In this document: piece by piece, positions 1-16,492 of the stretch | Layout: each line of letters starts with the position of its first letter | Position numbering within the stretch: position 1 is the stretch's first letter | Source: an uncultured Acidimicrobiaceae bacterium | Lineage (GTDB): Bacteria > Actinomycetota > Acidimicrobiia > Acidimicrobiales > Ilumatobacteraceae | Assembly (NCBI GenBank): GCA_937890395.1 | Contig: CALACK010000198.1 | Coordinates: forward strand, 1 to 40,500 | DNA length: 40,500 bases | Direction of reading: 5' to 3' | Position numbers and translations under genes: made by a program | Notes under the pieces: generated by a model | Told to the model about the DNA's origin: nothing | What the model saw: only the letters and a program-made list of their open reading frames with translations | Databases searched by the model: none

Positions 1-404
1 AAAACTGGTGTACTCGGTGAGCCTGTAACTGTGTCAAGGCCTTGTGACTGGCGAGCTAAAACACAAACTTTTTTAGACGTGCCTGAGACGATCACAGCAG
101 TGCTTTCGGTGAGATGTCGACAGTTGCTCACAGTTACTGCCGAAGCGGGATTGATTCGGTCTATGCAACTTCCTTGCAAAGATGCTCCCGACAATGCCGC
201 GCGAAGCCGATCGCCGATCTTCGTGTTTTGCTCCATAAAGTCAGCGCGGTCAGTAATCATTGACGTGGTTGAATATGCCGATGAGATCACGCCCATCAGT
301 ACAACCGTGAGTATCCCGGTGATCATCATCGCTACAGCAATGTCTACTAATCCGACTGAACCGCGCTCGCGTCGAGCAAGATCAGACAATTTAAAAGTGT
401 TCAT
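1..404 (-). CDS. Type IV pilin-like minor pseudopilin, partial (3' end outside window)
   Basis: The minus-strand frame stays open from an ATG at 404 to the window edge, giving about 134 residues. The N-terminus has a short basic leader ending RRERG, then a hydrophobic stretch (about residues 16-41) like the N-terminal helix of type IV prepilins. The leader is not canonical: an Asp sits at +6 after the Gly, where prepilins usually have Glu at +5. The start overlaps the stop of the upstream PilV-like gene in a TGATG arrangement, so the two are probably translationally coupled. The context (prepilin peptidase, PilV-like protein, this gene) points to a minor pilin cassette. Two Cys in the visible part (VSNCRH, KKVCVL) could form a disulfide. 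Being truncated, its length and C-terminal domain are unknown. Confidence 0.7.
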   Translation of the reverse strand, partial: MNTFKLSDLARRERGSVGLVDIAVAMMITGILTVVLMGVISSAYSTTSMITDRADFMEQNTKIGDRLRAALSGASLQGSCIDRINPASAVTVSNCRHLTESTAVIVSGTSKKVCVLARQSQGLDTVTGSPSTPV

Positions 405-1252
405 CACGGCAGTGCGCTATAGGCGATTTGAGTTGTTGCGCCATTGGTGATCGTGATGTTTGACGACCCACCAAATGCCGATGCAGTTGACTTCGCGGCT
501 TTATAGGAGCCGGCCGGCAAATACGCAAACCACGCGCAACCTGAACTGTCGCCACTAAAAATTGTTGCATAGCGCCGCAACTTATACGAAGTGTTGTTGA
601 TCGCCTGCAAATCAACTGCTTGCGTCGCGGTCATACTGGTGACAATCAATCTGCCAAAACTTGTTGAATACGCTGCGGCGTCGGGTGGCACCGACTCGTA
701 TTTTGTCAAAGAATATGACTTGTCGGTTGTGCTGCCATCTGCGATACCGAACTTCCAAGTAACGGTGGTGATTCTTTTGATGGCAGTTGGCGTCATCGTG
801 GCAAAAGTTGCGGGTGATGTTGGTGTTTGCAGATTCGTGCATGTCACAGAAGACAGACCATCGGCGCCCGGCCCTGGCAACCAACTATTACGAAGAGTTG
901 CCGAGTAAACAACATTCTTTCTGGTTACTGATGTTGAAACATCTCCAAGAATCGCATTTGCGTTATCTAGAGCAAGTGCCGTGTTGCACCTAGTTGTCGC
1001 CGCGACGATCACAGACGAAACTTCGGCGCCAGTCTGAAGCCCGCATCCATAAACTGATGCATTTTCTGCAATTTGTTCTGCGGCTAGTCGCGCGTTAATT
1101 GCATCTTTAGAAAGTCTTGCTTGTGACGACATTGCAAAAGTTACCGTTAGCAAACCTAGCGACGCAAGGCCGACAAGTCCCATCGCAATTACTGCTTCGA
1201 TCATTGCGAATCCGTGATCAGAGCGAAGTTGTTTGCGCCTCACACATCTCAA
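404..1252 (-). CDS. PilV-like minor type IV pilin
   Basis: A 282-aa protein with a class III (prepilin) signal: a basic leader ending SDHG followed by FAMIEAVIAM, so cleavage after Gly leaves Phe at +1 and Glu at +5. A hydrophobic helix follows to about residue 45. The rest is Ser/Thr-rich with scattered Cys, as in exported pilin heads. The size and the IEA..A start resemble PilV/PilW-type minor pilins that prime pilus assembly; this is inference from the N-terminus and context. The start is a TTG at 1252 with GGAG about 6 nt upstream, inside the end of the prepilin peptidase gene. The 3' end overlaps the next pilin-like gene by 1 base. The three genes look like one minus-strand operon. Confidence 0.75.
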   Translation of the reverse strand: MRCVRRKQLRSDHGFAMIEAVIAMGLVGLASLGLLTVTFAMSSQARLSKDAINARLAAEQIAENASVYGCGLQTGAEVSSVIVAATTRCNTALALDNANAILGDVSTSVTRKNVVYSATLRNSWLPGPGADGLSSVTCTNLQTPTSPATFATMTPTAIKRITTVTWKFGIADGSTTDKSYSLTKYESVPPDAAAYSTSFGRLIVTSMTATQAVDLQAINNTSYKLRRYATIFSGDSSGCAWFAYLPAGSYKAAKSTASAFGGSSNITITNGATTQIAYSALP

Positions 1253-1253
1253 T

Positions 1254-1994
1254 TCATACTCCAGCTTTCCAACTGAAGTCAGCGATGATGGTTATTATTG
1301 CACCGAGTGCGAGCGCTGGCCCAAGTGGAATCGAAACTTTGCGAATGCGGCGCTGCATGATTCCAAATACGACAGTCCATAACACTGCTATAACTGCGGC
1401 GATTAAATATGCGCCAAATGCGGCGCCCCAACCCAACCACCCGAGTGGAAACCAAACAATCGGCGCGAATTTGACATCGCCTTCGCCAAGACCGCCACGC
1501 GAAACAAAGTAAAAAATTAGTGCAACACCTGTCGCGAGAATTGCGACGACAACTCCGCGCTTAAAGTCTTGCCACGAGTCGTTTACAAGCGCATCGGCAA
1601 AAAATCCAATCAACTCAAAGATCGCGAGTGTGATTATTGCCCGATTCGGAAGTCGTCGCGTTAATGCATCGATTGTCGCCGTGACCGCAAGACCGATACA
1701 TGACAGGGCAAGAACTACCGAGGCGATAGATGCACCGTGCTGGTTAATTACGCTCACAGCGATTATGCAAGATGTCATCTCAATTAGCGGATATTTAATT
1801 GAAATTCGTGCTTTGCAATGTCGGCAGCGACCGCGTAAAAACAGCCAAGTGAAAACTGGAATCAAATCAATCGGTGCGAGCAGTTCGTTACATGACGGAC
1901 ATTGCGACCGGCCTTTGACAAATTTTTCATTGCGCGGCAGGCGATGAATTAAAACAGTCGCAAAACTCCCAAGCATTAGCCCGACTACAGCCAT
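1254..1994 (-). CDS. pilD: Prepilin peptidase / N-methyltransferase (A24 family)
   Basis: Integral membrane aspartic peptidase that cleaves and N-methylates type IV prepilins. From the ATG at 1994 the order is: first membrane helix with GSFATVLIHRLPR; a cytoplasmic loop with two Cys pairs (CPSC and CRHC), the zinc-binding methylase signature; then several membrane segments. The two catalytic Asp are in TIDALTRRLPNR and in the GxGD motif GLGEGDVKFAP. The reading frame extends upstream to 2369 but that part has no family similarity and collides with the divergent gene at 2152, so I start at the first membrane helix. A GTG at 2000 is an equally possible start. It heads the minor pilin operon and presumably processes all pilins of the locus. 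Confidence 0.9.
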   Translation of the reverse strand: MAVVGLMLGSFATVLIHRLPRNEKFVKGRSQCPSCNELLAPIDLIPVFTWLFLRGRCRHCKARISIKYPLIEMTSCIIAVSVINQHGASIASVVLALSCIGLAVTATIDALTRRLPNRAIITLAIFELIGFFADALVNDSWQDFKRGVVVAILATGVALIFYFVSRGGLGEGDVKFAPIVWFPLGWLGWGAAFGAYLIAAVIAVLWTVVFGIMQRRIRKVSIPLGPALALGAIITIIADFSWKAGV

Positions 1995-2151
1995 AATCAC
2001 GGCTAAAACTCGACGGTCGTGTGTAGCGATCGCTCCTTCGGCAATTTTCAATAACAACGGATACCTACTTTCAGAACCGATTTTAGACTGTTTGGTGCGT
2101 CCCCATCGCTCACCCAAAAAGACATTGAATTCGTTTAAGATTAACAAGCCG

Positions 2152-2934
2152 ATGGAAATTGACCCGAATTCTGAAGATTTTGTACCTTCGGTGTTGATGC
2201 CATTGGCTACGCGGTTGAAAAATGGCGAGAACGAGCAGGTATTAAAGGACGAATTATTGACTTTGGTCTTGCCGTGGGTGCGCCAACAAGTCAGTTCGAA
2301 TATTCGGCGCATTCCGGTTAACGCCGACCCGGCAAATGTCTCAAGCCATATGCACGAAGCAGCTTTCAAGGCAGTGGCAAAAATTGATTGGCAACAGATC
2401 GATAAATGGCCGATGTATCTTGGCTCGCTAGTTCGACATTCTGCTCAAGAGGCTGCACGAGGTGACGACTATTTGTCGCGTCAGCAAAGAGTTCTGCGAA
2501 GACAGTTTCGAAATGCATGTATTGCCGAAGAAACAAAGCAACAGAGCCCAATCACAATTCAAGACCGCGAACGAATCGCGCTAGTAATTTCAGAAGGTCA
2601 AGCAGAACTTGCAAACGAGTTGCTTGTCAGTTGGCACCCACGAGAAGTTTCGACAGTACCCGACTCAATGAGCGAACAAATTTCGGTTGAAGACGAAGTT
2701 GAGCAACAGATGGTCAAGCAGAAAATAAAAAATTGGCTTGAAAACGAACTTCCTGCGGATATTCGCAATTTGGTTATTGACTGGATGCGACTGCCTCGCG
2801 CCAATATTTTGCCAGCCAGACTTGAAAAACAACTTCAACCATATATTTTAAGTCTGATGAATGCAGTTGACGATTTCGACACGGCTGAAATTTTTGCCGA
2901 ACTGTATTCTCAAGATGCATCAGTAGAAGTTTAA
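2152..2934 (+). CDS. Divergent sigma-70-family-like protein
   Basis: 260-aa soluble protein of uncertain function. Residues about 25-110 resemble sigma-70 region 2 running into region 3: a helical stretch (LPWVRQQVSSNIRR), an acidic/aromatic helix (HEAAFKAVAKIDW), then WPMYLGSLVRHSAQEAARGDDYLSRQQR, which aligns by eye with the I-R-x-x-x-x-D-x-x-R-x-x-D-x-x-x-R pattern of flagellar-type sigma factors. A clear region 4 helix-turn-helix is not visible in the C-terminal half, so it may be degenerate or not a true sigma factor. I chose the ATG at 2152 because the upstream extension is non-conserved in character and overlaps the region upstream of pilD. It is the first gene of a chain running to the class E sortase, so it may regulate that chain or the pilus genes (inference). 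Confidence 0.45.
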   Translation: MEIDPNSEDFVPSVLMPLATRLKNGENEQVLKDELLTLVLPWVRQQVSSNIRRIPVNADPANVSSHMHEAAFKAVAKIDWQQIDKWPMYLGSLVRHSAQEAARGDDYLSRQQRVLRRQFRNACIAEETKQQSPITIQDRERIALVISEGQAELANELLVSWHPREVSTVPDSMSEQISVEDEVEQQMVKQKIKNWLENELPADIRNLVIDWMRLPRANILPARLEKQLQPYILSLMNAVDDFDTAEIFAELYSQDASVEV

Positions 2935-2935
2935 A

Positions 2936-3367
2936 ATGAATGCCCGCCCGTCGCGGCTAGTGACACCAAAACTAGTTGAGAGAAAATGCGAAAAGTGCTC
3001 ATGTTTTTTGGCAATCCACAATTTAGAGAAACTTTGTTCGCCGTGTGCCAACCAAGAAAAGCGAAAAAGTTGGCTTTCGAAAAGTTTGAACCCCTCGTTT
3101 GTTACGAGCGCGGAAGAACTCGCCAAGATTGGCATTATTGAACTAATCACAATCAATAAACTGACAGCCGAAGTTGCAATCCCATTACTTTTAAAATCTG
3201 GGGTTTTACCTAGCCGCTTGCGCCGTTATCAATCTCTTTTGATTCAACTAGTTGCGTTGCAAGGTGTTTCAAACTCGGCAGCCGCTCGAAAACTCAACGT
3301 AACCCGCTGGACAGTCGCCGCTTGGCGCGAAAGACTTGGGATTAGGCTCACTAAAATAGACACATGA
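2936..3367 (+). CDS. Zinc-ribbon plus helix-turn-helix protein
   Basis: 143-aa small basic protein, family not recognised. The N-terminal third carries a CxxC...CxxC pair (CEKC at about residue 18 and CSPC at about 35), a likely structural zinc ribbon. The C-terminus has a helix-turn-helix-like stretch, GVSNSAAARKLNVTRWTVAAW, with the Ala-Ala-x-x-Leu-x-V-x-x-x-T-V spacing of resolvase/Trp-repressor-like HTHs. This suggests a DNA-binding accessory or regulator. It starts 1 bp after the preceding TAA, and its TGA overlaps the next ATG in an ATGA junction, so it is cotranscribed with its neighbours. A role in regulating the sortase chain is inference only. Confidence 0.6.
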   Translation: MNARPSRLVTPKLVERKCEKCSCFLAIHNLEKLCSPCANQEKRKSWLSKSLNPSFVTSAEELAKIGIIELITINKLTAEVAIPLLLKSGVLPSRLRRYQSLLIQLVALQGVSNSAAARKLNVTRWTVAAWRERLGIRLTKIDT

Positions 3368-5307
3368 GTTTAAATCGCCTACTTGGGGTACCTGGCCCAG
3401 AACCAGAAAACGGAAAGTCCCAAGTACGAAACCCAAATTTTGCAGACAATCGTTTGATTGTTCTGGGTAATAGTTCGGTGTTGATGGATGAGCTCAAAAA
3501 GCTCCGGCCACATCGTTCTGAAGATTCAGTTTTAATTGACTGGTCGCCGCAATCTGGTTCAACCAAGAATCTTGTCGAGAAGATTACTTCGATGGAGTCA
3601 GTTGAAATAGTTGACTTGGTCATCGTAAATTCTTGTGTGCCTGACCATGTCACCTCAGAGCGTGAGATGCGCAAACTATTTTCAGACATAAGACTGCCGA
3701 TGAAGGCAATTTCAGCAAGCGGCATCGCAGAAAAAAGCTTCAGATGGTGGATGTGCGTAGAACTTGAAGATAGTTCACCTGCGACGTTAAATATTTGGCA
3801 AGCCTCGGGTCGGTTGGTGTTTCGACATGCTGCCGAGTCGGCAAATCTTGTAGGCACACTTGTGCTCGTAGGCGACGCAGCTCAAGGCGCGAGCGATCTT
3901 CGAACGATGCTTGATAGCGAACATATTTCGTCTTCGCGCGTGCTTGGTTTCGGTATTTCAACCGATGGATCAGTTGATCTGGCGAAGAACAATTTCTCAA
4001 TGACGCCGATTTCTAAAGCTCATGAGGGCGGCAATATGTCTGCAGTCGATTTGCCGACCGAAAAAAATTATCTAATCGCCGAGATTGACATGGCTAAAGA
4101 TTCGCTCACTGATCTTGCAGACGAACTTCGTCAATCACAGCAAAATCTTCTCACATCTAATGCGTCGCTAGTTTCGAAACGCGAAGATGTCGAGAAAATT
4201 GGTCTTGAGATGGCTGTTCAATCACACGAATTATTCGCAGTCGAAACTGACCTGACGACTCAACGTGGAAACGTTGCAGTTATGTCAGATCAAGCCGATT
4301 CACTTCGCCGAGAGATTGAATATTTAGTGAAGCATCATGCTTCGCTGACCGAAACACTCGTTAACGAGCGAGCGTCGCTGCAAGTTATTAGAGATGAAAT
4401 GACCATCCAAATAGCCCGAGCCGAGCAAATTCAGTCGGCATTGACCCGAGCCGAAATTGATGCATCACATCAGCGCACTTTGTCGGATGAAGCAGTTCGC
4501 CTTGCCGAGGCTGCTCACGCCCGATTAAACGAGATAGTTGCCGAAACAACCAACTCTCAACAGATTTTGAATGAAGTTAAAAATGAAGTCACAAATCGCA
4601 AACAAGAATTGATTCGACTTGATATTCAGCGTGCCGAGAAGGCTAAAGAAACCGCAGAATATGAAGAAACTTTGACTGCACGCTCTTTGGTGTTGCAACG
4701 CGAACTTGAGACGATGCAACAAATGCAACGAGAAGTGCTCGCAACTCTTGAACGCGCCCGCACCGAGAGAACCGTAATTCATGCAGAACTCGCGAAACTT
4801 GCTGACTCGGGTAAAGATCCACAAGTTGAAATTTTGCGTATTTCTCGAGACTTTTTGACGGTCGAACTGGCCGAAATCGAGGGAGCAAAGTCGAGAATTT
4901 CAAAAGAAACCGATTTGATTAATTCAACAATCGAAGAGTCAAGAGAACTCGCAGCAGAATTCGAAATGAGCCGTGCGGCTGCACAGCAACAGTTTGATCA
5001 AGTCAGAGCGAAGGTCATTGAGATTCAAGAAAAAGAACTTGACGCTCAACTGGCCTTAAATAGTCTTGAAGACAAGGTCTCAGCGTTTCAAAAAGAGCGA
5101 GATGAACTCGTTAGGTTTGAAGAAGAACTAACAGAACGGGCCAAAGAGTTAGACCGAACTGAAAAAGATTTCGAAAGTGAAGTCGCCAAGCGAATTGCAG
5201 CGCATCTTGACGAACTTTCGGCGATGGGCTCTCGAGCACGTAAGAAAGCAATTAAAAAAGCAGTAGACAACATCACTTCAGAGAGCGAAGGCGACGAACA
5301 ACTATGA
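3364..5307 (+). CDS. Large coiled-coil protein with N-terminal alpha/beta domain
   Basis: 647 residues, no recognised family. Residues about 25-215 look globular, with alternating hydrophobic strands (RLIVLGN, VDLVIVNS, GTLVLVGDA) suggesting an alpha/beta fold of unknown activity. From about residue 235 to 635 it is an almost uninterrupted heptad-rich region dense in Glu, Arg, Gln and Leu, typical of a long parallel coiled coil. The tail is basic (RARKKAIKKA) and then acidic. There is no signal peptide or membrane segment, so it is probably cytoplasmic and possibly a scaffold or filament. It is linked by ATGA overlaps to the genes on both sides. Conserved coupling with a sortase and a pilus cluster would suggest a cell-surface assembly or polarity role, but that is speculative. 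Confidence 0.7.
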   Translation: MSLNRLLGVPGPEPENGKSQVRNPNFADNRLIVLGNSSVLMDELKKLRPHRSEDSVLIDWSPQSGSTKNLVEKITSMESVEIVDLVIVNSCVPDHVTSEREMRKLFSDIRLPMKAISASGIAEKSFRWWMCVELEDSSPATLNIWQASGRLVFRHAAESANLVGTLVLVGDAAQGASDLRTMLDSEHISSSRVLGFGISTDGSVDLAKNNFSMTPISKAHEGGNMSAVDLPTEKNYLIAEIDMAKDSLTDLADELRQSQQNLLTSNASLVSKREDVEKIGLEMAVQSHELFAVETDLTTQRGNVAVMSDQADSLRREIEYLVKHHASLTETLVNERASLQVIRDEMTIQIARAEQIQSALTRAEIDASHQRTLSDEAVRLAEAAHARLNEIVAETTNSQQILNEVKNEVTNRKQELIRLDIQRAEKAKETAEYEETLTARSLVLQRELETMQQMQREVLATLERARTERTVIHAELAKLADSGKDPQVEILRISRDFLTVELAEIEGAKSRISKETDLINSTIEESRELAAEFEMSRAAAQQQFDQVRAKVIEIQEKELDAQLALNSLEDKVSAFQKERDELVRFEEELTERAKELDRTEKDFESEVAKRIAAHLDELSAMGSRARKKAIKKAVDNITSESEGDEQL

Positions 5308-5639
5308 CGGGCTTCAACCAAAACAACAATTCAAGCGACGACTCAAAAGATATAGGTAGTTCAAAATCGCGTTCAAAGTTCATCGATGTAAACCCTGTTG
5401 AGGTAACCGGCGAGATTGCTCGACCGCCGTTTATTGCATCCACTGAAGAGGTCAACAAGTCGTCGTTGCGCAATATCATCAACGCGGTTGACTTTCCGGG
5501 GTCGTCTGGCACTGGCGAAACCACAGACGGCGCGAGCGCAACTGTTCGACTTCGCTCTGATTACACATTGGTTGAAGATTCGGTTATCGCCACAATCCCT
5601 GAAAAAAAACGACGATCTAAATCTAAATTTTTTCGGTGA
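5304..5639 (+). CDS. Small polar protein of the sortase chain, unknown function
   Basis: 111-aa hydrophilic protein without a signal peptide, membrane segment or recognised domain. It is rich in Ser, Asp, Asn and Thr, with a strongly basic C-terminus (PEKKRRSKSKFFR), so much of it may be disordered. Its ATG overlaps the stop of the coiled-coil gene (ATGA), and its TGA overlaps the GTG of the sortase gene (GTGA), so translation is probably coupled in both directions. That tight placement is the main reason to accept it as real. Function unknown; it could be an adaptor between the cytoplasmic coiled-coil protein and the membrane sortase, but nothing in the sequence proves this. Confidence 0.6.
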   Translation: MTGFNQNNNSSDDSKDIGSSKSRSKFIDVNPVEVTGEIARPPFIASTEEVNKSSLRNIINAVDFPGSSGTGETTDGASATVRLRSDYTLVEDSVIATIPEKKRRSKSKFFR

Positions 5640-6961
5640 TCGATAAACCCTTACCGTTTCGTCAAGCGCACTCAAGGCCACCGCGTGTAAGGCGGTCGCT
5701 GCGAATGCTTGGAATGGGGCTGACGTGGGCCAGTTTTATTGGTGTTTTGTTTGTGCTGTTTCAACTCTTTGGCACCGGAGTTTTTGAATATCAATCACAA
5801 AGCAAGCTAAGCAGTAAATTTGAAGCCGCTTCGCCTTCGATTGAGTTGATTGCAACACCGATCTTTTTGCCAACTACAACAATCGAAACGACGACGACAA
5901 CTACTAGTTCGACAACTTCGATACCGGCGCCAGTTACAACTATTGCGTCAAACCAAACGACCGCAGTCGACGAGAATATTGCGCCGGTCGAGGTAGTGCC
6001 AACAACATTGCCTGCCGAAATAGCCCCGACGACATTGCCTGCCGAAATAGCCCCGACAACTTTGCCGCCGGTTATAGACCCGACAATGGTTCAGCAATCA
6101 ACCGCGGCGATAAAGCGCGTCACCAAAGCATCCGAAGGTGATGTAATTGGGCGAATTATGGCGCCATCAATCGGGTTAGATAAATTCATCGTTGAAGGTG
6201 CTGCCGTGAATGAGTTACGATCGGCAATTGGCCGATACCGCGGTACTGCATTCTTGGGCAACAAAGGAAACGTCGCACTTGCCGGTCATAGAACTACCTA
6301 CGGTGCGCCGTTCGGTCGTATCGGCGAGTTGCTTCCTGGTGACAAAATAAATGTTTTGACGCCTGTTGGTACCGCAATTTATGAAGTGATGGACCCAGTA
6401 GTCGCATCAAAATTATGGGCCGGAACGGTTCGTGAAATCGGCGGTGGTTATTCAGTCGTTGGGCCAAGCGACGAGTTCGTATTGGCTGATGTTGGGGATA
6501 ATCGACTGACGCTTACAGCATGTCATCCGAAGTTCAGTGCAGAAGAGCGGATTATCGTAGTTGCTCAACTAGTCGGCGAACCTTTCGCAATGCTCAACCC
6601 CGAATTCGGTAAATCGATTGCGCAAATCACAACACCACCAACGCTCGCAAACGGCGAAGCCGCGCCTTCGACACCAGCTGATCCATCGCTCAACTCAACA
6701 GAACAGTTATTTGACCCTTCGGTTAATGTCGACGTCACCCCAGTAGCCATTCAGACTCTTAAAGTGACACTTGATGGTCTGCCAAATCAAATTGCACCGT
6801 CGATAGTTTTTGCATTGTTGACATTAGTTGTGATGACTGCAATTGCTGCAGCCTCTGAGAAATTTGGACGATTGCGTGCCTACATTTTTGGCTCGGCGCC
6901 GTTTTTTATTGTCTTATGGTTCTTTTTTAGAAATTTAGAACTTTTGTTGCCTGCCTACTAG
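5636..6961 (+). CDS. Class E sortase with long Thr/Pro linker
   Basis: Membrane transpeptidase that joins proteins with an LAxTG-type signal to the cell wall. A basic N-terminus precedes a membrane helix (about residues 28-47), then a Thr/Pro-rich extracytoplasmic linker (about 75-160) with two copies of a PAEIAPTTL unit. The catalytic domain spans about 165-325: His217 in ALAGHRTTYG, Cys296 in LTLTACHPKFS and Arg305 in EERIIV, matching the His-Cys-Arg triad and the TLxxCxP pattern of class E. A low-complexity stretch and two C-terminal membrane helices follow. At 441 aa it is long for the class, because of the linker and tail. The start is a GTG overlapping the upstream stop. It is the last gene of its chain. 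A likely substrate is encoded at 9541-10200. Confidence 0.9.
   Translation: MIDKPLPFRQAHSRPPRVRRSLRMLGMGLTWASFIGVLFVLFQLFGTGVFEYQSQSKLSSKFEAASPSIELIATPIFLPTTTIETTTTTTSSTTSIPAPVTTIASNQTTAVDENIAPVEVVPTTLPAEIAPTTLPAEIAPTTLPPVIDPTMVQQSTAAIKRVTKASEGDVIGRIMAPSIGLDKFIVEGAAVNELRSAIGRYRGTAFLGNKGNVALAGHRTTYGAPFGRIGELLPGDKINVLTPVGTAIYEVMDPVVASKLWAGTVREIGGGYSVVGPSDEFVLADVGDNRLTLTACHPKFSAEERIIVVAQLVGEPFAMLNPEFGKSIAQITTPPTLANGEAAPSTPADPSLNSTEQLFDPSVNVDVTPVAIQTLKVTLDGLPNQIAPSIVFALLTLVVMTAIAAASEKFGRLRAYIFGSAPFFIVLWFFFRNLELLLPAY
6007..6060 (+). repeat. Two tandem copies of a 27-bp unit in the sortase linker
   Basis: Two adjacent 27-bp copies (6007-6033 and 6034-6060) differ at one base and encode LPAEIAPTT twice. 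A diverged third unit follows (LPPVIDPT). The unit length is a multiple of three, so copy-number change would only alter linker length. Confidence 0.85.
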
Positions 6962-6976
6962 AAGCAAGTAAACAAA

Positions 6977-7004
6977 AAACGGTGCCAGCGAACTGGCACC
7001 GTTT
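6977..7004. terminator. Bidirectional intrinsic terminator between sortase and pilin genes
   Basis: A perfect 12-bp stem (AAACGGTGCCAG / CTGGCACCGTTT) with a CGAA loop, read as TTCG on the minus strand. It lies between the convergent sortase and pilin stops. On the minus strand the stem runs into six T, a good terminator for the pilin. On the plus strand the tail is GTTTCTTTT, weaker but plausible. Confidence 0.85.
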
Positions 7005-7025: not shown

Positions 7026-7823
7026 CTAGTTACCAGCTCCACCTGCTGCACCAGTTGCATCACGCCATGACGAGTAGAACTCGCTTGGTTGCGCGTAGTA
7101 CGCCGTAACGAAGCCCGCTTGACCAAAAACAAGACCGCTTGACTGTTTTGCAGCGTTGCAGTTACTCTGAGTTAGCGCAAGAGTTTGTGTGTTATCGGCA
7201 TCTGCAGCATTTGAACGCGCGCGAATTTGGGCGTATGCAGCACCGTTTGTCTGCAAAAGTGTCCATGTCGCAATTGATGCATTTTGTGTGTTCAAAGCCG
7301 GAGCCATAACGATTGGAGCAATGCTGCCAGCATTGAAGAACTTACCTTCAACTGTGAATCGTGCAATCCAGCAGGTTCCGCTTGATGAAAGTGCCGTAGC
7401 AAAAAATGCTTGGCAGCCAAGTAGTTCAGCGTTTGAGTTCCATGTTCGGCGAGCATCAACGCTCACAGTTCGAGCACTTGTCGATGCAGTTGCTGCGGCG
7501 ATCACGTCAACGTTTGGCTCAATTTTCTGCAAGTCAGCAGCAAGTGCTGTTGTGACTGAGACACCAGCGTCAGAACCGCAACCAGCAGTCGATGCGTCTG
7601 AAAAGTCACCTTGGTTCTGGTAAAGACCAAGTGCAGCATTCATTACCAAGTTGATTGAATTCTGGGCTTCTTTATCGTATGCGTTGTTTCGCGATCCCAA
7701 GAAACTGGGCACTGCGACAGAGGCCAAAATACCAACGACAAGCATGGCGACAGCCAATTCTGTAAGGGTGAAGCCCCTTTGAAGTTTGAGGGTTGTTCTG
7801 AGGACTTTGATATTTAGCTTCAT
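7026..7823 (-). CDS. pilA: Major type IV pilin, paralogue 1
   Basis: 265-aa prepilin. The leader is basic (MKLNIKVLRTTLKLQRG) and cleavage after Gly gives FTLTE, with Glu at +5, followed by a hydrophobic helix to about residue 42. The ATG at 7823 is chosen because AAGGA lies about 7 nt upstream; the frame extends to 7913 but that part runs into the repeat and hairpin. The head domain is Ala/Ser/Thr-rich with Cys residues in positions shared by all three paralogues. It is very close to the pilin at 10417-11184, including two long identical nucleotide blocks. The 3' terminator is at 6977-7004. It is separated from pilin 2 by an imperfect hairpin, so it is transcribed by read-through or from its own weak promoter. 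Confidence 0.92.
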   Translation of the reverse strand: MKLNIKVLRTTLKLQRGFTLTELAVAMLVVGILASVAVPSFLGSRNNAYDKEAQNSINLVMNAALGLYQNQGDFSDASTAGCGSDAGVSVTTALAADLQKIEPNVDVIAAATASTSARTVSVDARRTWNSNAELLGCQAFFATALSSSGTCWIARFTVEGKFFNAGSIAPIVMAPALNTQNASIATWTLLQTNGAAYAQIRARSNAADADNTQTLALTQSNCNAAKQSSGLVFGQAGFVTAYYAQPSEFYSSWRDATGAAGGAGN

Positions 7824-7894
7824 GGTTTTTCCTTTTGATTTATTAGTTTGAACAGTACAGCTGCCTATAACCGAGAATGTGGATATGCAAATGG

Positions 7895-7918
7895 GGTGCC
7901 AGCGAACTGGCACCGTTT
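7895..7918 (-). terminator. Imperfect hairpin downstream of pilin 2
   Basis: The 8-bp stem GGTGCCAG / CTGGCACC with TTCG loop (minus strand) is the same as in the terminator at 6977-7004, but on the minus strand it is followed by CCATTTGC, not a T-tract. It may act as a pause or mRNA-stabilising 3' hairpin, allowing some read-through into pilin 1. Confidence 0.55.
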
Positions 7919-7948: not shown

Positions 7949-7990
7949 TAACTAATTAACTAACTAACTAGCTAGATAACTAGCTATTAA
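7949..7990. repeat. Degenerate TAAC/TAGC tetranucleotide array at the pilin 2 stop
   Basis: A low-complexity run of TAAC, TAAT, TAGC and TAGA tetramers, including TAACTAACTAACTAGCTAG, ends in the stop codon region of pilin 2. It gives stop codons in several minus-strand frames. It may be slippage debris; no function is evident. Confidence 0.6.
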
Positions 7991-8766
7991 CTGTTAGATC
8001 CGTTGGCTCCAGCTTGTACGTCTTTCCAAGAGGTGTAGAACTCAGTTGATTTGATTACGTTGGCTGTTGAACTGACACTTCCGGTTCCTTGTGTTGAGGC
8101 TTTGCATGCCGTACCGATTGCAGCAAGTCCGTTTGTGTTATCGGCATCAGCACCAGTTGACCGACCGCGAATGTAAGCGAAGGCTTTTCCGTTTACTTGT
8201 AGCAGTGTCCATGTTGCTACGGCAGCGTTTTGGGTGTTCAGCGGGGTAGCCAGTTGAATTGGCAATGTTGTATCTGAGGAGAGAAACTTACCTTCAACCG
8301 TGAAGCGCACGATCCAGCAACTTCCACTTCGCGAAAGTGCAGTGGCATAGAACGCTTGGCAACCAAGAAGTTCGCTGTTTGAGCTCCAGGTTTGGGCGGC
8401 TTGCACGCTGACAACTTGCGGGTTGGTCGAACTTGATGAAGCGGCAACTGCATCTACGCCTGGCTCAATTTTTTGAATATCTGCAGGCAATTGCGCAGAG
8501 TCTCCACATTGAGCTGTTGATGCATCTGAGAAGTCACCTTGGTTTGCGTAAAGGATATCTGCGGCTTTAAGCACAGCACTAAGAGAAGCTTGTGCTTCTT
8601 TGTCGTATGCATTGTTTCGCGCGCCTAAGAAACTCGGCACTACGACGCTGGCCAGAATACTGACCACGAGCATGCTGATCGCGAGTTCAGTGAGTGTGAA
8701 ACCACTTTCGCGGTTCATAATTTTGGCTGTTGCTTTCTTAACTATTCGTGTAAATGCTGAATTCAT
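7987..8766 (-). CDS. pilA: Major type IV pilin, paralogue 2
   Basis: 259-aa prepilin. The leader ends NRESG and cleavage leaves FTLTELAISM with Glu at +5; the hydrophobic helix continues to VVPSFLGARNNAYDKEAQ, a block shared by all three paralogues. GGGAG lies 7 nt before the ATG at 8766. It is the most diverged of the three: the helix end and the NQGDFSDAS, LLGCQAF and FTVEGKF blocks are kept, while other loops differ. The Cys pattern is conserved, suggesting the same disulfide-stapled head. It is divergent from the gene at 8964, with about 197 bp between them that should hold both promoters. It could be a second structural pilin or an alternative subunit; the sequence does not say which dominates the fibre. 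Confidence 0.92.
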   Translation of the reverse strand: MNSAFTRIVKKATAKIMNRESGFTLTELAISMLVVSILASVVVPSFLGARNNAYDKEAQASLSAVLKAADILYANQGDFSDASTAQCGDSAQLPADIQKIEPGVDAVAASSSSTNPQVVSVQAAQTWSSNSELLGCQAFYATALSRSGSCWIVRFTVEGKFLSSDTTLPIQLATPLNTQNAAVATWTLLQVNGKAFAYIRGRSTGADADNTNGLAAIGTACKASTQGTGSVSSTANVIKSTEFYTSWKDVQAGANGSNS

Positions 8767-8963: not shown

Positions 8964-9491
8964 ATGAGCGATAGCACCAACAGTGGCAGTCCGGTGAGTG
9001 ATGACTCGAACAGCTCTGACCGCATCGAAGGTGTTGAACCAGACGAGTCACAATCTGGCGGATATCGCAAAAGCGAAGAATCCACTGAAGATAAATTTCC
9101 CAACGAGGCGCTGGCGCATGTTCGTGTGCTGGATGTTGGAGAACCGGCTCGCGAGGTCGCTCGTCAACTCGGCTTAGAGATTCAGAGTGCACTGCCCGAG
9201 CCAGGCGAAAGACCTGTGGTGTTGGTCGTTTCAGAGCCAAGTGAAGTAGACACATTGCTAGACGTCGAAAATCGTGCATGGATCGGTTGCGTGGTCGCAT
9301 GGCAATTGCCTGAAGAGTCAGTTGAGCGTCTCTACCAACTTGGAGTGTCGGTATTCGTCGGCTTGCCCGATTTCAGCGAATTGTTGCATGCAATTGAATA
9401 TTTACCAGACGGAGCAGATGTTGTGGCGTCTCGTTCTTTTGCGGCGCGACTTGCAACAATTGAAAAGTTGCTTACTAGTAAATCTAAATAG
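8964..9491 (+). CDS. Pseudo-receiver-like protein with disordered N-terminus
   Basis: 175 residues, no family recognised with certainty. The first 45 or so are acidic and Ser/Asp/Glu-rich, probably disordered. The rest alternates strands and helices (VRVLDVG, RPVVLVVSE, WIGCVVAW, VSVFVGLPD), like a small Rossmann-type or degenerate response-regulator receiver fold, but the acidic pocket and the phosphorylatable Asp are not obvious. There is no signal peptide or membrane segment. The ATG at 8964 has only a weak upstream ribosome site. Sitting between pilin genes and divergent from pilin 2, it could be a regulator or localisation factor of the pilus. This is inference; the only firm statement is that it is a coding frame in a well-placed position. 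Confidence 0.6.
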   Translation: MSDSTNSGSPVSDDSNSSDRIEGVEPDESQSGGYRKSEESTEDKFPNEALAHVRVLDVGEPAREVARQLGLEIQSALPEPGERPVVLVVSEPSEVDTLLDVENRAWIGCVVAWQLPEESVERLYQLGVSVFVGLPDFSELLHAIEYLPDGADVVASRSFAARLATIEKLLTSKSK

Positions 9492-9540: not shown

Positions 9541-10200
9541 TTATCGCTTGTTATTGAAGCGGTTGCCTGATGCAGACCATGACGGTGCAACGGTTCGGCG
9601 ACGCGAGAACATGATGTTGATCAGTCCAATTAAAGCAATAGTTGCGAGTACTGGCAGAACGATGATCGTATTCAGACCGGTTTTGGCAAGTTCAGTGTCA
9701 AGGACAACTGGCTCGGTTGGTGTCAAGGTGACTACCCCAGGCGTTACCGGCACTTGTGGCTCTGGCGCTGTGATTACCGCAGTTTCAACTTTTATGGCTG
9801 CCGACGAAGATAACTGAGCCGAATTTGGTGCCACGCAGTTGAAAGCTAAATAGTATGTGCCGCTTTGAATGTTGATTGGCAGCATTACTGCTGCACGCAC
9901 GTATCCGGCTGCATTGACTTTTGGCGCCGCGTAGGCAGAGATTACGTTTCCGGTTTGCGGGTTGTCTGAACGAAGTTCGAGGCTTGTCGTGCCAGACGGT
10001 GAACAACCACCCGAAGTAAATTCAATTTTCTCAAACGAAAGGTATGAGGCCTTCGGGTTTTGAATTACTAACTGGCCATCTGCGCGGGGTTTAAGCAGGT
10101 CTAGCTTCGAAGTTGTCTTGGCAGCCGACACTGGATTTGGCGAAATAATTAAGGAGAGCAAAATAGTCAATCCTGATATCGCGTTTAACTTGCGCTTCAT
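9541..10200 (-). CDS. Secreted LAKTG-anchored surface protein
   Basis: 219-aa exported protein and probable sortase substrate. There is an N-terminal signal peptide (MKRKLNAISG then a hydrophobic core, likely cut after VSA near residue 26). The mature part (about 27-140) is probably a beta-sandwich with two Cys (66 and 122) that could pair. A Pro/Thr/Val-rich wall-spanning stretch (about 140-168) leads to a C-terminal sorting signal: LAKTG at residues 171-175, a hydrophobic helix (about 177-198) and the stop-transfer SRRR. After this comes an unusual 15-18 residue polar tail. LAxTG is the motif favoured by class E sortases, and one is encoded at 5636-6961. AGGAG lies 7-8 nt before the ATG. 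It may be a pilus-associated or wall protein; its binding partner is unknown. Confidence 0.85.
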   Translation of the reverse strand: MKRKLNAISGLTILLSLIISPNPVSAAKTTSKLDLLKPRADGQLVIQNPKASYLSFEKIEFTSGGCSPSGTTSLELRSDNPQTGNVISAYAAPKVNAAGYVRAAVMLPINIQSGTYYLAFNCVAPNSAQLSSSAAIKVETAVITAPEPQVPVTPGVVTLTPTEPVVLDTELAKTGLNTIIVLPVLATIALIGLINIMFSRRRTVAPSWSASGNRFNNKR

Positions 10201-10336: not shown

Positions 10337-10354
10337 GCGCCAGCGAACTGGCGC
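10337..10354 (-). terminator. Distal terminator hairpin behind pilin 3
   Basis: 7-bp stem GCGCCAG / CTGGCGC with a TTCG loop (minus strand), followed on that strand by GTTTTG. It is the second of two tandem hairpins downstream of pilin 3. Confidence 0.65.
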
Positions 10355-10365
10355 TTGTCTTCAAA

Positions 10366-10391
10366 GTGGGCGCCAGCGAACTGGCGCCCAC
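10366..10391 (-). terminator. Proximal hairpin behind pilin 3
   Basis: Perfect 11-bp stem GTGGGCGCCAG / CTGGCGCCCAC with a TTCG loop on the minus strand, 26 bp past the pilin 3 stop. It has the same loop and inner stem as the hairpins at 6977, 7895 and 10337. The T-tract is poor on this one, so it may protect the 3' end, with termination at the distal hairpin. Confidence 0.65.
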
Positions 10392-10416: not shown

Positions 10417-11184
10417 CTAGTTACGAGCTCCACCTGCTGCACCAGTTGTGTCACGCCATGACGAGTAGAACTCGCTTGGTAGCGCGTAGTAAAGAGCAGC
10501 AGTTGTTGATCCGCTTGACTGGAATGCAGCGTTGCAGTTACTCTGAGTTAGCGCAAGAGTTTGTGTGTTATCGGCATCTGCAGCATTTGAACGCGCGCGA
10601 ATTTGGGCGTATGCAGCACCGTTTGTCTGCAAAAGTGTCCATGTCGCAATTGATGCATTTTGTGTGTTCAAAGCCGGAGCCATAACGATTGGAGCAATGC
10701 TGCCAGCATTGAAGAACTTACCTTCAACTGTGAATCGTGCAATCCAGCAGGTTCCGCTCGAAGACAGTGCTGTAGCAAAAAATGCTTGACAGCCAAGGAG
10801 TTCAGCGTTTGAGTTCCATGTTTGCTTTGAAGTAACGCTCACAGTTCGAGCACTTGTCGATGCAACTGCTGCGGCGATCACGTCAATGTTTGGCTCAAGT
10901 TTCTGCAAGTCGGCAGCAAGTGGTGTTGAATCGCCACATTGCGCACTGTTTGCGTCTGAAAAGTCACCTTGGTTCTGGTAAAGACCAAGTGCAGCATTCA
11001 TTACCAAGTTGATTGAATTCTGGGCTTCTTTATCGTATGCATTGTTTCGTGAGCCTAAAAAGCTTGGCACTGCGACAGAGGCCAAAATACCCACTACAAG
11101 CATGGCGACAGCCAATTCTGTGAGGGTAAAACCACTTTCGCGTCCAACCAATTTGGACTTAATTTTGCTAATTAACTTACTCAT
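10417..11184 (-). CDS. pilA: Major type IV pilin, paralogue 3
   Basis: 255-aa prepilin. The leader ends GRESG and cleavage leaves FTLTELAVAM with Glu at +5. The helix, the NAYDKEAQ block and the Cys pattern are shared with paralogues 1 and 2. The ribosome site is strong: GGAGG just before the CATATG at 11184. The gene is nearest to paralogue 1: 10525-10758 is base-identical to 7149-7382 (234 bp), and 10951-11040 to 7593-7682 (90 bp), with diverged stretches between. Variation falls in two windows, after NQGDFSDA and after SNCNAA near the C-terminus. It has its own candidate promoter (11259-11286) and leader hairpin (11206-11237), and is divergent from the assembly operon. It may be the best-expressed subunit (inference from the ribosome site and promoter). 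Confidence 0.92.
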   Translation of the reverse strand: MSKLISKIKSKLVGRESGFTLTELAVAMLVVGILASVAVPSFLGSRNNAYDKEAQNSINLVMNAALGLYQNQGDFSDANSAQCGDSTPLAADLQKLEPNIDVIAAAVASTSARTVSVTSKQTWNSNAELLGCQAFFATALSSSGTCWIARFTVEGKFFNAGSIAPIVMAPALNTQNASIATWTLLQTNGAAYAQIRARSNAADADNTQTLALTQSNCNAAFQSSGSTTAALYYALPSEFYSSWRDTTGAAGGARN

Positions 11185-11437: not shown

Positions 11438-12964
11438 ATGAGTCAAATTACTCAGACGTTCGTCGGCGCAGAAATTGACGGCACGACACTTCGTGTTGTT
11501 CGCCTTGAGGGTCGAACAGTCGTCTACTACGAGAAGTTTCGTCAACTAAATAGTTCTGCCGTTGCATCAATAATGCATCAAGGTAAATCCAAAAACACTC
11601 GTGCTGTGCTTTCGTGGGGGTCATCAGGTGTAGCGATGCAGCGCGTTCAAGCCCCCGGTGTCGTCGCTCGAAAAATGCAGCCGGTTATTCGCGAATTGAT
11701 TAATCGTCATCTTCCATCTGGAAGCGAATTGCCGGGTGCTGGTCTCGTTCAGTCGAGGTTTGATGTTGCAAGACCCACTGCAATGGTTGGCGCGATCACT
11801 TCTGAGACTGCGTTAAACCTGCGCTATGAATTAGACAATTCAAATTGCGGATTAATTGTTGCGCCATTCACACTTAATCACGAAGGTTTATATTTGGCAG
11901 TTCGTGAGTCGTGCGCCGAAATGACTCTCGTGCGCGGCGGCATACCAGTATCTTCTCGTCAACTTAATTGTGGCGGTGCATCACCGTGGCCACAAGGTGA
12001 TAATGCAACGCAAACTCAATCATTATTTTCGCCAGAAAATGTTGTTGCATTGCGTCGATATCTAGCAAGCCTTGCACGCGAAGTGCATCGAACGATTGAA
12101 CTCTGGGAGCGAAACGGTGACACTTGCCCGCGCGACCTATGGACTTTTGGCTCTGGGGCAACACTGCCTCAACTACCGGCATTTTTAGAAAATGTCGGGG
12201 TGACAGTTCTGCCGGCACCAGTTAGTAGCAGCCTTGATGTTTCACAGATTCCAGAGGCTGAGCGGCTTGCTGCTTACGGTTCGCTTGCTGCGGCAACTAT
12301 GCAACTTGAATATCAACCATTTGTCGATGTATCAAGATATTTCAGTCGACGTTTGAGCCGACGACTTGCAAAACAGTCTCCGTCGAAAAGTCTGCAGCCA
12401 TTTGAAGGAGTAATCACCGGCGACGGCTCGCGAGGCTTTGCAAGTCCTGTATTTAGTTCTTCAAGAATTTCACAAGTGCCGCGTGGTTTGGCAGTTGGCC
12501 TATCGGTCGTTGTCGTTGCGGCATTATTCGCGACATTTGCTTGGGTTTCGGCAGGGCGAACTGCAGCAAGTCTCGAGCGTGTTATTGCGACTGCGCAACG
12601 CGAAGTTAAGTCGAGCAAAGCCGCCGCAGAACTTGCCGCAAGAAAACAATCAGCAGCGACACAGTTAAATTCAATTTCGCAATTCACACCGCCGATTTGG
12701 TCGGCCGCCGTTGTTGCACTTCTGTCGTCTCTTCCGGCTGAGCCGATCGTTAATTCAGTTTCATTCAATGTCGAAAATGGGCTTGTTAGTGCGAGATTTA
12801 TCGTCAAGATTCCTGCCGAAATGCTCGACGAGTGGCAGCGCGCTCTTGCCACAAGTGGCGCATCGATTTCTATAACAGAACTAGATGCAACCGAAAATGG
12901 GCCGGTTGAGTACGCATTCGTGTTTCCGCTTGGTGTGCCATTCGTGCCTTTCGGTGATGCATGA
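11438..12964 (+). CDS. pilM: PilM-PilN fusion: type IV pilus inner-membrane assembly protein
   Basis: 508 aa, first gene of the pilus assembly operon. Residues 1 to about 290 resemble PilM, an actin-like ATPase-fold cytoplasmic protein: VGAEIDGTTLRVVRLEG at the start is the first phosphate-loop-like strand pair, and WTFGSGATLPQLPAFL is the later FGGGA-type motif. After a polar, probably cytoplasmic linker there is one membrane helix (about 349-372, rich in Val and Ala). Then comes a helical stretch and a small alpha/beta domain ending near 500, with the topology expected of PilN. In most systems PilM and PilN are separate and PilN's N-terminus docks on PilM; here they appear to be one chain. 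The ATG is 1.4 kb from the operon's PilO start and overlaps it as ATGA. The domain calls rest on pattern and gene order, not alignment. Confidence 0.75.
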   Translation: MSQITQTFVGAEIDGTTLRVVRLEGRTVVYYEKFRQLNSSAVASIMHQGKSKNTRAVLSWGSSGVAMQRVQAPGVVARKMQPVIRELINRHLPSGSELPGAGLVQSRFDVARPTAMVGAITSETALNLRYELDNSNCGLIVAPFTLNHEGLYLAVRESCAEMTLVRGGIPVSSRQLNCGGASPWPQGDNATQTQSLFSPENVVALRRYLASLAREVHRTIELWERNGDTCPRDLWTFGSGATLPQLPAFLENVGVTVLPAPVSSSLDVSQIPEAERLAAYGSLAAATMQLEYQPFVDVSRYFSRRLSRRLAKQSPSKSLQPFEGVITGDGSRGFASPVFSSSRISQVPRGLAVGLSVVVVAALFATFAWVSAGRTAASLERVIATAQREVKSSKAAAELAARKQSAATQLNSISQFTPPIWSAAVVALLSSLPAEPIVNSVSFNVENGLVSARFIVKIPAEMLDEWQRALATSGASISITELDATENGPVEYAFVFPLGVPFVPFGDA

Positions 12965-13548
12965 GCCGCCGAAACATCTTTATAAGTATCGGCGCAGTTG
13001 TTGTTGCGTTGATCTTTGTTGGCGTTTTCGGATTGATTAATAATCGTCGTGACCATGTTGATCGGCTTCGAGAAACTGCCGATCTAGTGTTTCTTGAGTC
13101 GGCCGCGATTCGCGCCAAGTCGGCCAATATAGATCTCACAGGTGACCCAAATTTAAGTCTTCTCGCACCATCAACGCTGACGAGCGCAGACTTGGTCAGC
13201 GCAATTCGCAGAGAAGCCGAAGTTTTAACGCTTGGTGTTGTTGAAGCCAAAGCGCCCGCTGAATCGATGACTGTAGAAGCAGCGCTTACTGCTTTAAACA
13301 TCGACCCAACTTCGTTAACAGAACTTTTTACAGTGGTTACGGCTGTGGTTGAAGTTACGGGTGATGTTCCTCGGCTAATTCAGTTGATTGATAAAACGAG
13401 AGATGCGCGCATTACTGGCCCGTTGATCGGTATCGCCAGCATCAAGTTTAATTTTGCCGGCAATCAAACAGTGGCAACTCTCGAGTTAGTTGGCATCAGA
13501 TTTAATGAACAGCAAATATCTGTAGCGCCCGAAACTACTTTGCCTTGA
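12961..13548 (+). CDS. pilO: PilO-like type IV pilus assembly protein
   Basis: 195-aa bitopic membrane protein. A short basic start and one membrane helix (about residues 6-24) are followed by a coil-prone stretch (NNRRDHVDRLRETADLV) and a ferredoxin-like C-terminal domain with strands such as IASIKFNFAG and VATLELVGIRF. The size, topology and position after the PilM/PilN protein match PilO, which pairs with PilN to form the alignment complex linking cytoplasmic motors to the fibre. The ATG overlaps the upstream stop (ATGA), and its own TGA overlaps the TTG start of pilB. Sequence similarity to PilO families is weak by eye, so the name rests mostly on gene order. Confidence 0.7.
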   Translation: MSRRNIFISIGAVVVALIFVGVFGLINNRRDHVDRLRETADLVFLESAAIRAKSANIDLTGDPNLSLLAPSTLTSADLVSAIRREAEVLTLGVVEAKAPAESMTVEAALTALNIDPTSLTELFTVVTAVVEVTGDVPRLIQLIDKTRDARITGPLIGIASIKFNFAGNQTVATLELVGIRFNEQQISVAPETTLP

Positions 13549-15274: not shown

Positions 15275-16492
15275 ATGTCTCACACATACTTTTTTAAGGG
15301 CTCTGATCGACTTGATCGCAAACGCAAGGGTCAAATTGTCGCGGTTGATCGCGAATCCGCGAAGGCCAAGTTATATCGTCGCGGGGTTTATGTAAAGCGA
15401 CTGAGGCGGCGAATATTTTTCGATCTGTTTTCACGAGACTTAGATTTCATCCATCCAAGATTGCCGTTAGAAGAAGTGCTCTGGATCTCTCGTAATCTTT
15501 CAAGTTTGTTGACCAGTGGTATACGCCTTCCGGAGGCTTGCGAACTAATTACAGATCAACGACCAGGCAAGCGACCGGCGCGAGTCATGACAAAAATTCG
15601 ACTTGATCTCGAAGCAGGAATGGGTGTCGGCGATGCATTCGTTGCTCAACAGCATCGTCTCGGCAAAGTTCCTACTGCGATGATCAAAGCTGGCGAGGCC
15701 ACAGGGTCACTAGTCGCAACATTTAAGGGCATCATTGATTTGTGTGATGCGCAAATTAGATTGCGAAAAAATCTGAAGCGCGCAGTTCAATATCCGCTCG
15801 CTGTGATGTCAACAACAATCACGGTTTTGCTGGCAATGGTTTTTTTCGTGGTGCCGCGCTTCGTTGATATGTATTCGCAACTCAATGCAAAGCTTCCGGC
15901 TTTGACGCAGTTCGTGGTTGATCTGAGCATCACACTTACTCGTCAAGCCTGGGCGTTTCCTACTATTTTGGGTTTGTTGATTGCGTTGGGTTATCTTCTT
16001 CGAAAGATTCCAACTGGGCGAATTATCACAGATAATTTATTTCTAAAGGTTCCACGACTTGGTGCGCTTATCCATCGGTCAATTACTACTCGCAGTGCTG
16101 CGACGTTGAGCGCTTTGCTCACAGCGAAAGTTTCAATGCTCGACTCTCTAGAAATGACCGGTGAGGCAAGTGGCAACGTGGTGTTTCAAGAAGCATTTCT
16201 AGGGATCCAAGATTTAATTGCACAGGGCGAGTCTGTTACCGACTCATTTTCAAGTATCGACGAGTTGCCATTAGTATTTCGCGATCTTGCAGCAGTTGGT
16301 GATGCCTCTGGAGACCTTGCAGGTGTTCTTGCGCGGTATGCGGCTGATACCGAAGAAGATCTCAAACGAGATGGTGAAGATTTCGCAAAGGCAATTGAGC
16401 CGTATTTGATTTTGGGTCTTGGTGTGATCGTAGGTACAGCAGTGATTGCGCTGTACCTACCGATCTTCCAACTCGTAACAATCGTTGGCTAG
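15275..16492 (+). CDS. pilC: Type IV pilus platform protein PilC (GspF family)
   Basis: 405-aa polytopic inner-membrane protein that works with PilB. It has two copies of the GspF helical domain, the first beginning around LEEVLWISRNLSSLLTSGI (about residue 66), the second around the region TTRSAATLSALLTAKVSM (about 268). Membrane helices lie between the domains (about 170-195 and 222-242) and at the C-terminus (about 375-400). The first 60 residues are basic and soluble. It is the last gene of the assembly operon, 20 bp after pilB. Its TAG abuts the stop of the convergent YHYH gene, so any terminator must lie inside that gene. Confidence 0.95.
   Translation: MSHTYFFKGSDRLDRKRKGQIVAVDRESAKAKLYRRGVYVKRLRRRIFFDLFSRDLDFIHPRLPLEEVLWISRNLSSLLTSGIRLPEACELITDQRPGKRPARVMTKIRLDLEAGMGVGDAFVAQQHRLGKVPTAMIKAGEATGSLVATFKGIIDLCDAQIRLRKNLKRAVQYPLAVMSTTITVLLAMVFFVVPRFVDMYSQLNAKLPALTQFVVDLSITLTRQAWAFPTILGLLIALGYLLRKIPTGRIITDNLFLKVPRLGALIHRSITTRSAATLSALLTAKVSMLDSLEMTGEASGNVVFQEAFLGIQDLIAQGESVTDSFSSIDELPLVFRDLAAVGDASGDLAGVLARYAADTEEDLKRDGEDFAKAIEPYLILGLGVIVGTAVIALYLPIFQLVTIVG

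Follow-up and report, generated by a model that had tools for sequence, protein, structure and literature searches.

Why would a sortase be coupled to a sigma-like gene and a long coiled-coil gene in the middle of a type IV pilus locus? The question is raised by a 40,500-nucleotide contig (C198) from the 2.17-Mb genome of an uncultured Acidimicrobiaceae bacterium (G000, 90.9% complete), the whole of which was analysed and is called the window below. Five of its genes, named g1 to g5 in order and all encoded on the plus strand, form the following chain:

2152–2934, plus strand: g1, 260 amino acids (aa), sigma-28/WhiG-derived protein that keeps region 2 and the start of region 3 and lacks the region-4 helix-turn-helix (HTH)
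2936–3367, plus strand: g2, 143 aa, zinc ribbon and HTH
3364–5307, plus strand: g3, 647 aa, coiled-coil protein
5304–5639, plus strand: g4, 111 aa, small polar protein
5636–6961, plus strand: g5, 441 aa, class E-like sortase

The answer that we favour, with a probability of about 45%, is that this chain serves one particular kind of type IV pilus as a dedicated cassette for control and wall anchoring, in which g1 and g2 would make up a two-part sigma factor and g5 would anchor a protein carrying an LAXTG signal.

The open reading frame coordinates bear out the preliminary description of this DNA, which had reported five coupled genes with a 1-bp gap and three stop/start overlaps: the g1/g2, g2/g3, g3/g4 and g4/g5 junctions measure +1, -4, -4 and -4 bp. 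The chain is flanked on the left by a minor prepilin and a prepilin peptidase gene and on the right by three prepilin genes, and the N_methyl and A24_N_bact matches on these flanks confirm its position between minor-pilin and major-pilin genes. All five genes occur in the same order in six genomes from four genera of one family (G000, G043, G004, G228, G144 and G227), and two further genomes match as far as their contigs extend (G024, g2–g5; G006, g1–g3). In each of the six full-chain genomes the chain adjoins the minor prepilin gene, and a prepilin peptidase was recognised in all but G227. The 4-bp overlap between g2 and g3 is present in all four genera; that between g4 and g5 is clear only in the window's genus, with a spacing of 44–45 bp in G144 and G228, as far as the starts are readable, and an unsure g5 start in G227. 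For the three distant genera, g4 was identified from the reading frames that separate g3 from g5 and not from BLAST matches. Identity between the window and the other genera is 46–51% for g1, 39–47% for g2, 42–48% for g5 and 23–30% for g3. Judged from these comparisons, the five-gene order is more than chance and the chain is a real, conserved overlapping unit. The order is kept beside this pilus locus in four genera and not only here, which supports the suggestion of a coupled unit that departs from standard sortase and pilus clusters. Two genes, G004 g3 (locus L014, about 4801) and G144 g5 (L016, about 11850), are each split over two frames, by assembly error or real decay; alignment A3 does without the broken g3, A11 includes no more of it than the first unbroken part, and for G144 g5 the catalytic frame alone was aligned.

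The chain is rare. Among 221 genomes of the family, g3 was found in eight by tblastn and g1 in eight by profile search, which together give nine genomes with chain genes; G139 has the g1–g2 pair and no other chain genes, at a different pilus locus. Drawn samples of the order, class and phylum were also searched for g1. It was found in one genome besides G000 in the order sample (G417; 397 genomes), in two besides G000 in the class sample at E below 1e-30 (G606 and G690; 394 genomes), and in G000 and G606 only in the phylum sample at E 1e-10 (396 genomes). At E 0.001 the g1 profile matches 132 of the 394 class genomes, and the weaker matches that were inspected are WhiG/FliA-type sigma factors. 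PHROGs and PADLOC gave no match for the chain proteins searched except two weak rows for g2.

To which pilus does the unit belong? The locus encodes the components by which a type IV pilus is recognised, namely prepilins, a prepilin peptidase, PilB and PilC. Its pilM-like protein was found in 7 of the 221 family genomes, and all seven carry chain genes, including two (G024 and G228) in which the pilM-like gene and the chain lie on separate contigs. In two chain carriers it was not found: G006, which is 75% complete and whose contig is cut, and G139, whose pilus locus is a different one. All four chain carriers examined in the window's genus have a PilB-class ATPase (E about 1e-110), and none of the three chain-less mates examined (G005, G017 and G042) has one. 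Because PilB-class ATPases also occur in chain-less genomes of other genera (G117, G208 and G126), the chain is not a companion of type IV pili generally; by these presence patterns, it is tied to one pilus type. G000 has three T2SSE ATPases: PilB and two that, judged by their neighbours, look Tad-type. In this genome, the only one covered by ATPase typing and 90.9% complete, no retraction ATPase was recognised, and for this reason an adhesive pilus seems more probable than one that drives twitching. The hallmark of a sortase-assembled pilus was not found: the prepilins of the window lack sorting signals, and only the protein encoded at 9541–10200 has one.

The first part of the proposed cassette depends on what g1 is. 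A seven-sequence g1 profile (A6) searched against PDB sequences retrieved WhiG (6pfv_A, E 7.9e-6, and a second WhiG, 1.9e-5), followed by FliA (6pmi, E 3.2e-4) and a sigma-28 (3.3e-3); the next matches are unrelated (E 0.17). In hhalign, the g1 alignment matched a WhiG alignment, whose rows were picked from the g1-profile hits, with probability 96.5 and E 7e-10, against a probability of 0.1 for the g3 alignment used as control. In the reverse direction, a WhiG profile recovered g1 in four of nine genomes with an assembled g1 (G139, E 5.6e-9; G227, 3.9e-5; G144, 1.6e-4; G417, 3.7e-4). The AlphaFold model of g1 had a predicted local distance difference test score (pLDDT) of 72.6 and a predicted template modelling score of 0.44. 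Foldseek returned sigma chains for all of the best 50 of 208 matches, with a best E of 8.7e-4 and only one below 0.001. In VIA comparisons, the full-length model reached Z scores up to 10.8 with a large root mean square deviation (rmsd), and regions 1.2–2 alone superposed on 5h6x (Z 9.3, 3.5 Å over 95 residues) and on WhiG 7lq4 (Z 8.9, 3.7 Å over 94). As helical bundles reach such Z scores by chance, the sequence profile is the stronger evidence. Profile and fold agree that sigma region 2 and the start of region 3 are present. In a joint alignment with 11 WhiG/FliA-type sigmas, all seven g1 rows miss six to eight residues at the first helix of the region-4 HTH; we therefore call g1 derived from the sigma-28/WhiG family and not a member of it. 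Homology of g1 to this family is well supported by sequence profile and model.

The gene also accompanies pilus genes outside the full chain. In G139, the g1–g2 pair runs towards pilC, a gene of PilT-like sequence and pilB in convergent orientation; in G606, g1 stands beside two nearly identical prepilins and a PilT-like gene. In both genomes g3 to g5 were not found nearby, and "PilT-like" is our reading of the sequences. The two G606 prepilins adjoining the g1 homologue (L068, 10894–11400 and 11634–12140) differ by one residue. We also considered that g1 may no longer drive transcription and may act as a decoy, for example by titrating a partner of the canonical WhiG of G000. Loss of the region-4 HTH would fit such a role, as would the full-length WhiG-type match that G000 encodes at C37:15367-16101; a decoy would not need the HTH-bearing g2 that adjoins g1 in nine genomes, and we regard this possibility as quite unlikely.

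If g1 retains a sigma function, g2 is the candidate for the missing DNA-binding part. Four cysteines (C18, C21, C34 and C37), arranged in CxxC pairs, are invariant and form the zinc ribbon, and the HTH_23 family matches at E 7.4e-4 in the window and 4.7e-5 in L016, both below cut-off. We found g2 in 9 of the 11 genomes searched, and it adjoins g1 in all nine with both genes assembled, G006 included. The g2 profile matched PDB sequences of RpoN C-terminal domains only at E 0.5–0.7, and one member matched Pfam Sigma54_DBD at E 0.034. The RpoN box has a similar RxTVAxYR string, which is a lead only. The earlier assignment of both g1 and g2 as regulators is supported by the sigma-28/WhiG relatives of g1 in profile and fold and by the zinc ribbon and HTH of g2.

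What would the long coiled-coil protein do in such a unit? In g3, an N-terminal domain at about residues 25–212 precedes a coiled coil that starts at about residue 232, and the most conserved segment spans 349–384, with E364, S368 and R371 invariant. Structure prediction of the N-terminal domain, which had been proposed as a check, gave a low-confidence model (pLDDT 57.3) whose best VIA match is a polyketide-synthase reductase region (Z 12.9, rmsd 3.4 over 170 residues). The fold may be short-chain-dehydrogenase-like, at low confidence, and the weakness of the model led us to give no closer label. This domain is present in the window's genus and in G144 and absent in G228 and G227 (L015 and L017). 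The g4 protein has a conserved tail (R-L ... T.V ... RR); its homologues in the distant genera are short and alike mainly at the C-terminus.

One reading, in line with the preliminary description, takes g3 as a scaffold in the cytoplasm by which the pilus machine and the sortase would be positioned, with g1 and g2 as minor regulators. A long coiled coil coupled to a membrane sortase would suit this idea, and g3 has a very weak match (E 0.045) to the pilus-motility coiled-coil protein HmpF, of a kind that any coiled coil may give. No positive evidence for the placing of pili emerged: the N-terminal domain is missing in two of the four genera, g3 is only 23–30% identical across genera while g1 and g5 keep 42–51%, and g1 accompanies pilus genes with no g3 nearby in G139 and G606. 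We consider the scaffold unlikely.

A second idea casts g3 as an RsiG-type anti-sigma factor that holds g1 in response to cyclic di-GMP. In Rubrobacter, a WhiG–RsiG switch in which RsiG holds WhiG controls type IV pili (PMC8325347). Within the most conserved segment of g3, the invariant residues are spaced as E(X)3S(X)2R, a triplet that 9 of 20000 column shuffles also yielded, and G000 has two GGDEF matches. None of the five g3 rows has the complete RsiG signature, E(X)3S(X)2R(X)3Q(X)3D, and only E, S and R are invariant in them. The K, G, R trio by which WhiG contacts cyclic di-GMP is kept in none of seven g1 rows (positions mapped by spacing; 4 of the 11 sigma rows carry the exact trio). RsiG is not among the PDB sequence-search matches listed for g3, and the triplet was sought only after the RsiG work was known. 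We find an RsiG-type role highly improbable. A composite, in which a two-part sigma factor is joined by a giant coiled-coil anti-sigma factor with a partial RsiG cyclic di-GMP site and by a sortase that fixes a dedicated surface protein at the pilus, is very unlikely in our estimate.

The second part of the cassette is the sortase. Homology of g5 to sortases is secure in sequence comparison: it matches Pfam Sortase at E 2.6e-22 (79.3 bits, cut-off 26.6), and its triad of H218, C296 and R305 is invariant in five rows. It has one N-terminal and two C-terminal hydrophobic spans and ends in LLPAY. Class E, to which g5 had been assigned, is the best-scoring of the NCBIfam classes listed, with 120.2 bits against a cut-off of 160; since the score falls under the cut-off, we call g5 class E-like. 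In a tree of 16 sortases, chosen from 30 fetched after 14 whose catalytic site was missed by the motif pattern had been dropped, the seven chain sortases fall on one side of a branch with support 100/100. Nearest to them is a G417 sortase encoded beside ABC-transporter-like genes, not pilus genes.

The protein at 9541–10200 is the likely substrate of g5, a pairing predicted from its C-terminal signal and its conservation. It has two invariant cysteines, and the LAKTG motif of the window is replaced by LAVTG in G144 and MAHTG in G227. A homologue is present in all five genomes in which the stretch is assembled (G000, G043, G004, G144 and G227); in G024, G228 and G006 it is cut. A strict sorting-signal scan of 13 loci found one protein in each of four, all of them chain loci, and nothing else; the G043 copy was missed as its frame runs on beyond the tail limit. 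The general expectation that the unit anchors wall proteins thus gains a concrete, predicted candidate. Another explanation is that g5 is the genome's general sortase, that its position in the pilus locus is incidental and that the 9541–10200 protein is one of many substrates. In its favour, g5 is the sole sortase found in G000, G004, G043 and G024 (70–91% complete; four of the five chain-bearing genomes of the genus, G006 being left out); the other nine genomes searched have two to six sortases each. Three other genera with two to five further sortases nevertheless keep the chain clade in this unit, and the unit goes with this pilus, so that an incidental position seems unlikely to us.

Taken as a mechanism, the favoured cassette would work as follows. 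g1 would supply the contacts with core polymerase and the -10 element, g2 would contact upstream DNA through its HTH, and together they would act as a two-part sigma factor switching on the pilus locus. g3 and g4 would be cytoplasmic partners that hold or tune g1 and g2, and g5 would attach the LAXTG protein to peptidoglycan. Production of the pilus and anchoring of a companion surface protein would thereby be coupled.

Several results weigh against this proposal. The two-part sigma factor is plausible, and its sigma activity, the g1–g2 contact and the promoter are all predicted. g1 has no Pfam match above cut-off, and up to E 1 none of the Pfam sigma-70 region models hits it; the NCBIfam FliA/WhiG model reaches only E 0.044, and the WhiG profile did not report g1 in five of the nine genomes, that of the window included. 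The HTH of g2 gave no clear match to sigma region 4 (hhalign of A7 against the WhiG alignment, probability 5, E 0.008). g2 was not found in G606 and G690, which have g1, and no pilus genes surround the g1–g2 pair of G417 in the 16 kb read. In the 230 bp upstream of each of nine gene starts in the locus, there is no flagellar/WhiG consensus (TAAA, 14–16, GCCGATAA) at up to two mismatches; with three mismatches there is one site, before pilM. Over both strands of the whole window, there are 13 sites with up to two mismatches against 9.2 (standard deviation (s.d.) 3.2) in shuffled sequence, a count reached by 6 of 30 dinucleotide shuffles, and 149 with up to three against 102.5 (s.d. 12.4), reached by none of 30. 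We provisionally read the latter excess as base composition of coding DNA and not as promoters near the locus starts. Finally, as the sole sortase found, g5 may also serve other proteins, sorting signals having been scanned at the loci only.

The remaining features of the locus are the following:

404–1252, minus strand: minor prepilin; weak N_methyl (E 0.0059, below cut-off) and pilV matches; position conserved
1254–2369, minus strand: prepilin peptidase PilD; Pfam A24_N_bact E 4.8e-30; start probably near 2000; position conserved
7026–7913, minus strand: prepilin 1; N_methyl E 2.2e-6; start probably 7823
7987–8766, minus strand: prepilin 2; resembles prepilins 1 and 3 in sequence
8964–9491, plus strand: conserved cluster gene that converges on the substrate gene; matches no family above cut-off
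9541–10200, minus strand: predicted substrate of the sortase; LAKTG, then a hydrophobic stretch and RRR at the C-terminus; signal-peptide-like N-terminus
10417–11184, minus strand: prepilin 3; resembles prepilins 1 and 2 in sequence
11438–12964, plus strand: PilM-like, named by position; no Pfam match
12961–13548, plus strand: PilN/O-like, named by position; no Pfam match
13545–15254, plus strand: PilB; T2SSE E 1.1e-109; MshEN domain E 2.4e-10
15275–16492, plus strand: PilC; T2SSF E 1.3e-40
16493–18655, minus strand: 720-aa protein; no Pfam match at E 0.01; position after pilC kept in G004

The profile scan covered one of the three similar right-hand prepilins (prepilin 1). The number of these tandem paralogues varies among close relatives, with three in the window and in L010 and four in L012, which suggests duplication or exchange. 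The MshEN domain, found here in PilB, binds cyclic di-GMP in some relatives. The spacers between the pilin genes contain four copies of a palindromic hairpin with the sequence TGCCAGCGAACTGGCAC or a near match to it (6983–6999, 7897–7913, 10338–10354 and 10371–10387); with up to three mismatches it has five matches in the window against 0.38 expected, and copies also lie upstream of pilin genes in relatives. These hairpins may be either terminators or a mobile repeat. A search for a shared motif upstream of pilin genes, with 11 stretches aligned, gave scattered columns and no clear element, and generic scans of the window counted 19 promoter-like sites (16.8 expected) and 33 terminator-like ones (20.8 expected). 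Two other genera have, between the peptidase gene and g1, a pair of genes that is absent from this position in the window, for a VanY-type carboxypeptidase and a protein of about 230 aa without a family:

L016, 6049–7179 and 7154–7837: VanY-type carboxypeptidase (Pfam VanY E 9.3e-19) and ~230-aa protein
L015, 4205–5350 and 5152–5847: VanY-type carboxypeptidase (assigned by eye) and ~230-aa protein

How does the unit compare with known systems? Like the Rubrobacter WhiG–RsiG switch (PMC8325347), it ties a sigma factor of the flagellar clade to an actinobacterial type IV pilus and involves a coiled-coil protein. It differs in that g1 lacks the region-4 HTH, in that the gene sits inside the pilus locus together with genes for a sortase and a distinct HTH protein, and in that g1 does not have the residues that contact cyclic di-GMP, nor g3 the complete RsiG signature. 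The division of regions 2 and 3 from the other DNA-binding part, on two proteins, resembles SigO–RsoA of Bacillus subtilis (PMC10141391); the zinc ribbon of g2, an HTH for which hhalign gave no clear match to sigma region 4 (probability 5), the sigma-28/WhiG ancestry and the pilus locus set the present pair apart. With SrtE of Streptomyces and Actinoplanes, g5 shares the catalytic domain and residues and an LAXTG-type signal in its candidate substrate (PMC13251363), but its gene is coupled to those of a sigma-like and a coiled-coil protein inside a type IV pilus locus, and it belongs to its own clade among the sortases compared. Sortase-built Gram-positive pili likewise have a sortase next to pilus genes (PMC3244431); in the present locus the pilins are prepilins of the type IV kind and carry no sorting signal, and the sortase would act on a companion protein. 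In the literature searched, we found no description of a sortase in such a type IV pilus locus, nor of this gene set.

If the favoured reading is true, type IV pili and sortase anchoring, which are usually treated apart in Gram-positive bacteria, would be joined in one coupled unit. The g1–g2 pair would give a naturally occurring example of a pilus-linked sigma factor split over two genes, and would extend what is known of how actinobacterial pili use WhiG-type sigma factors. g1, g2, g5 and the LAXTG protein would offer small proteins on which this can be tested.

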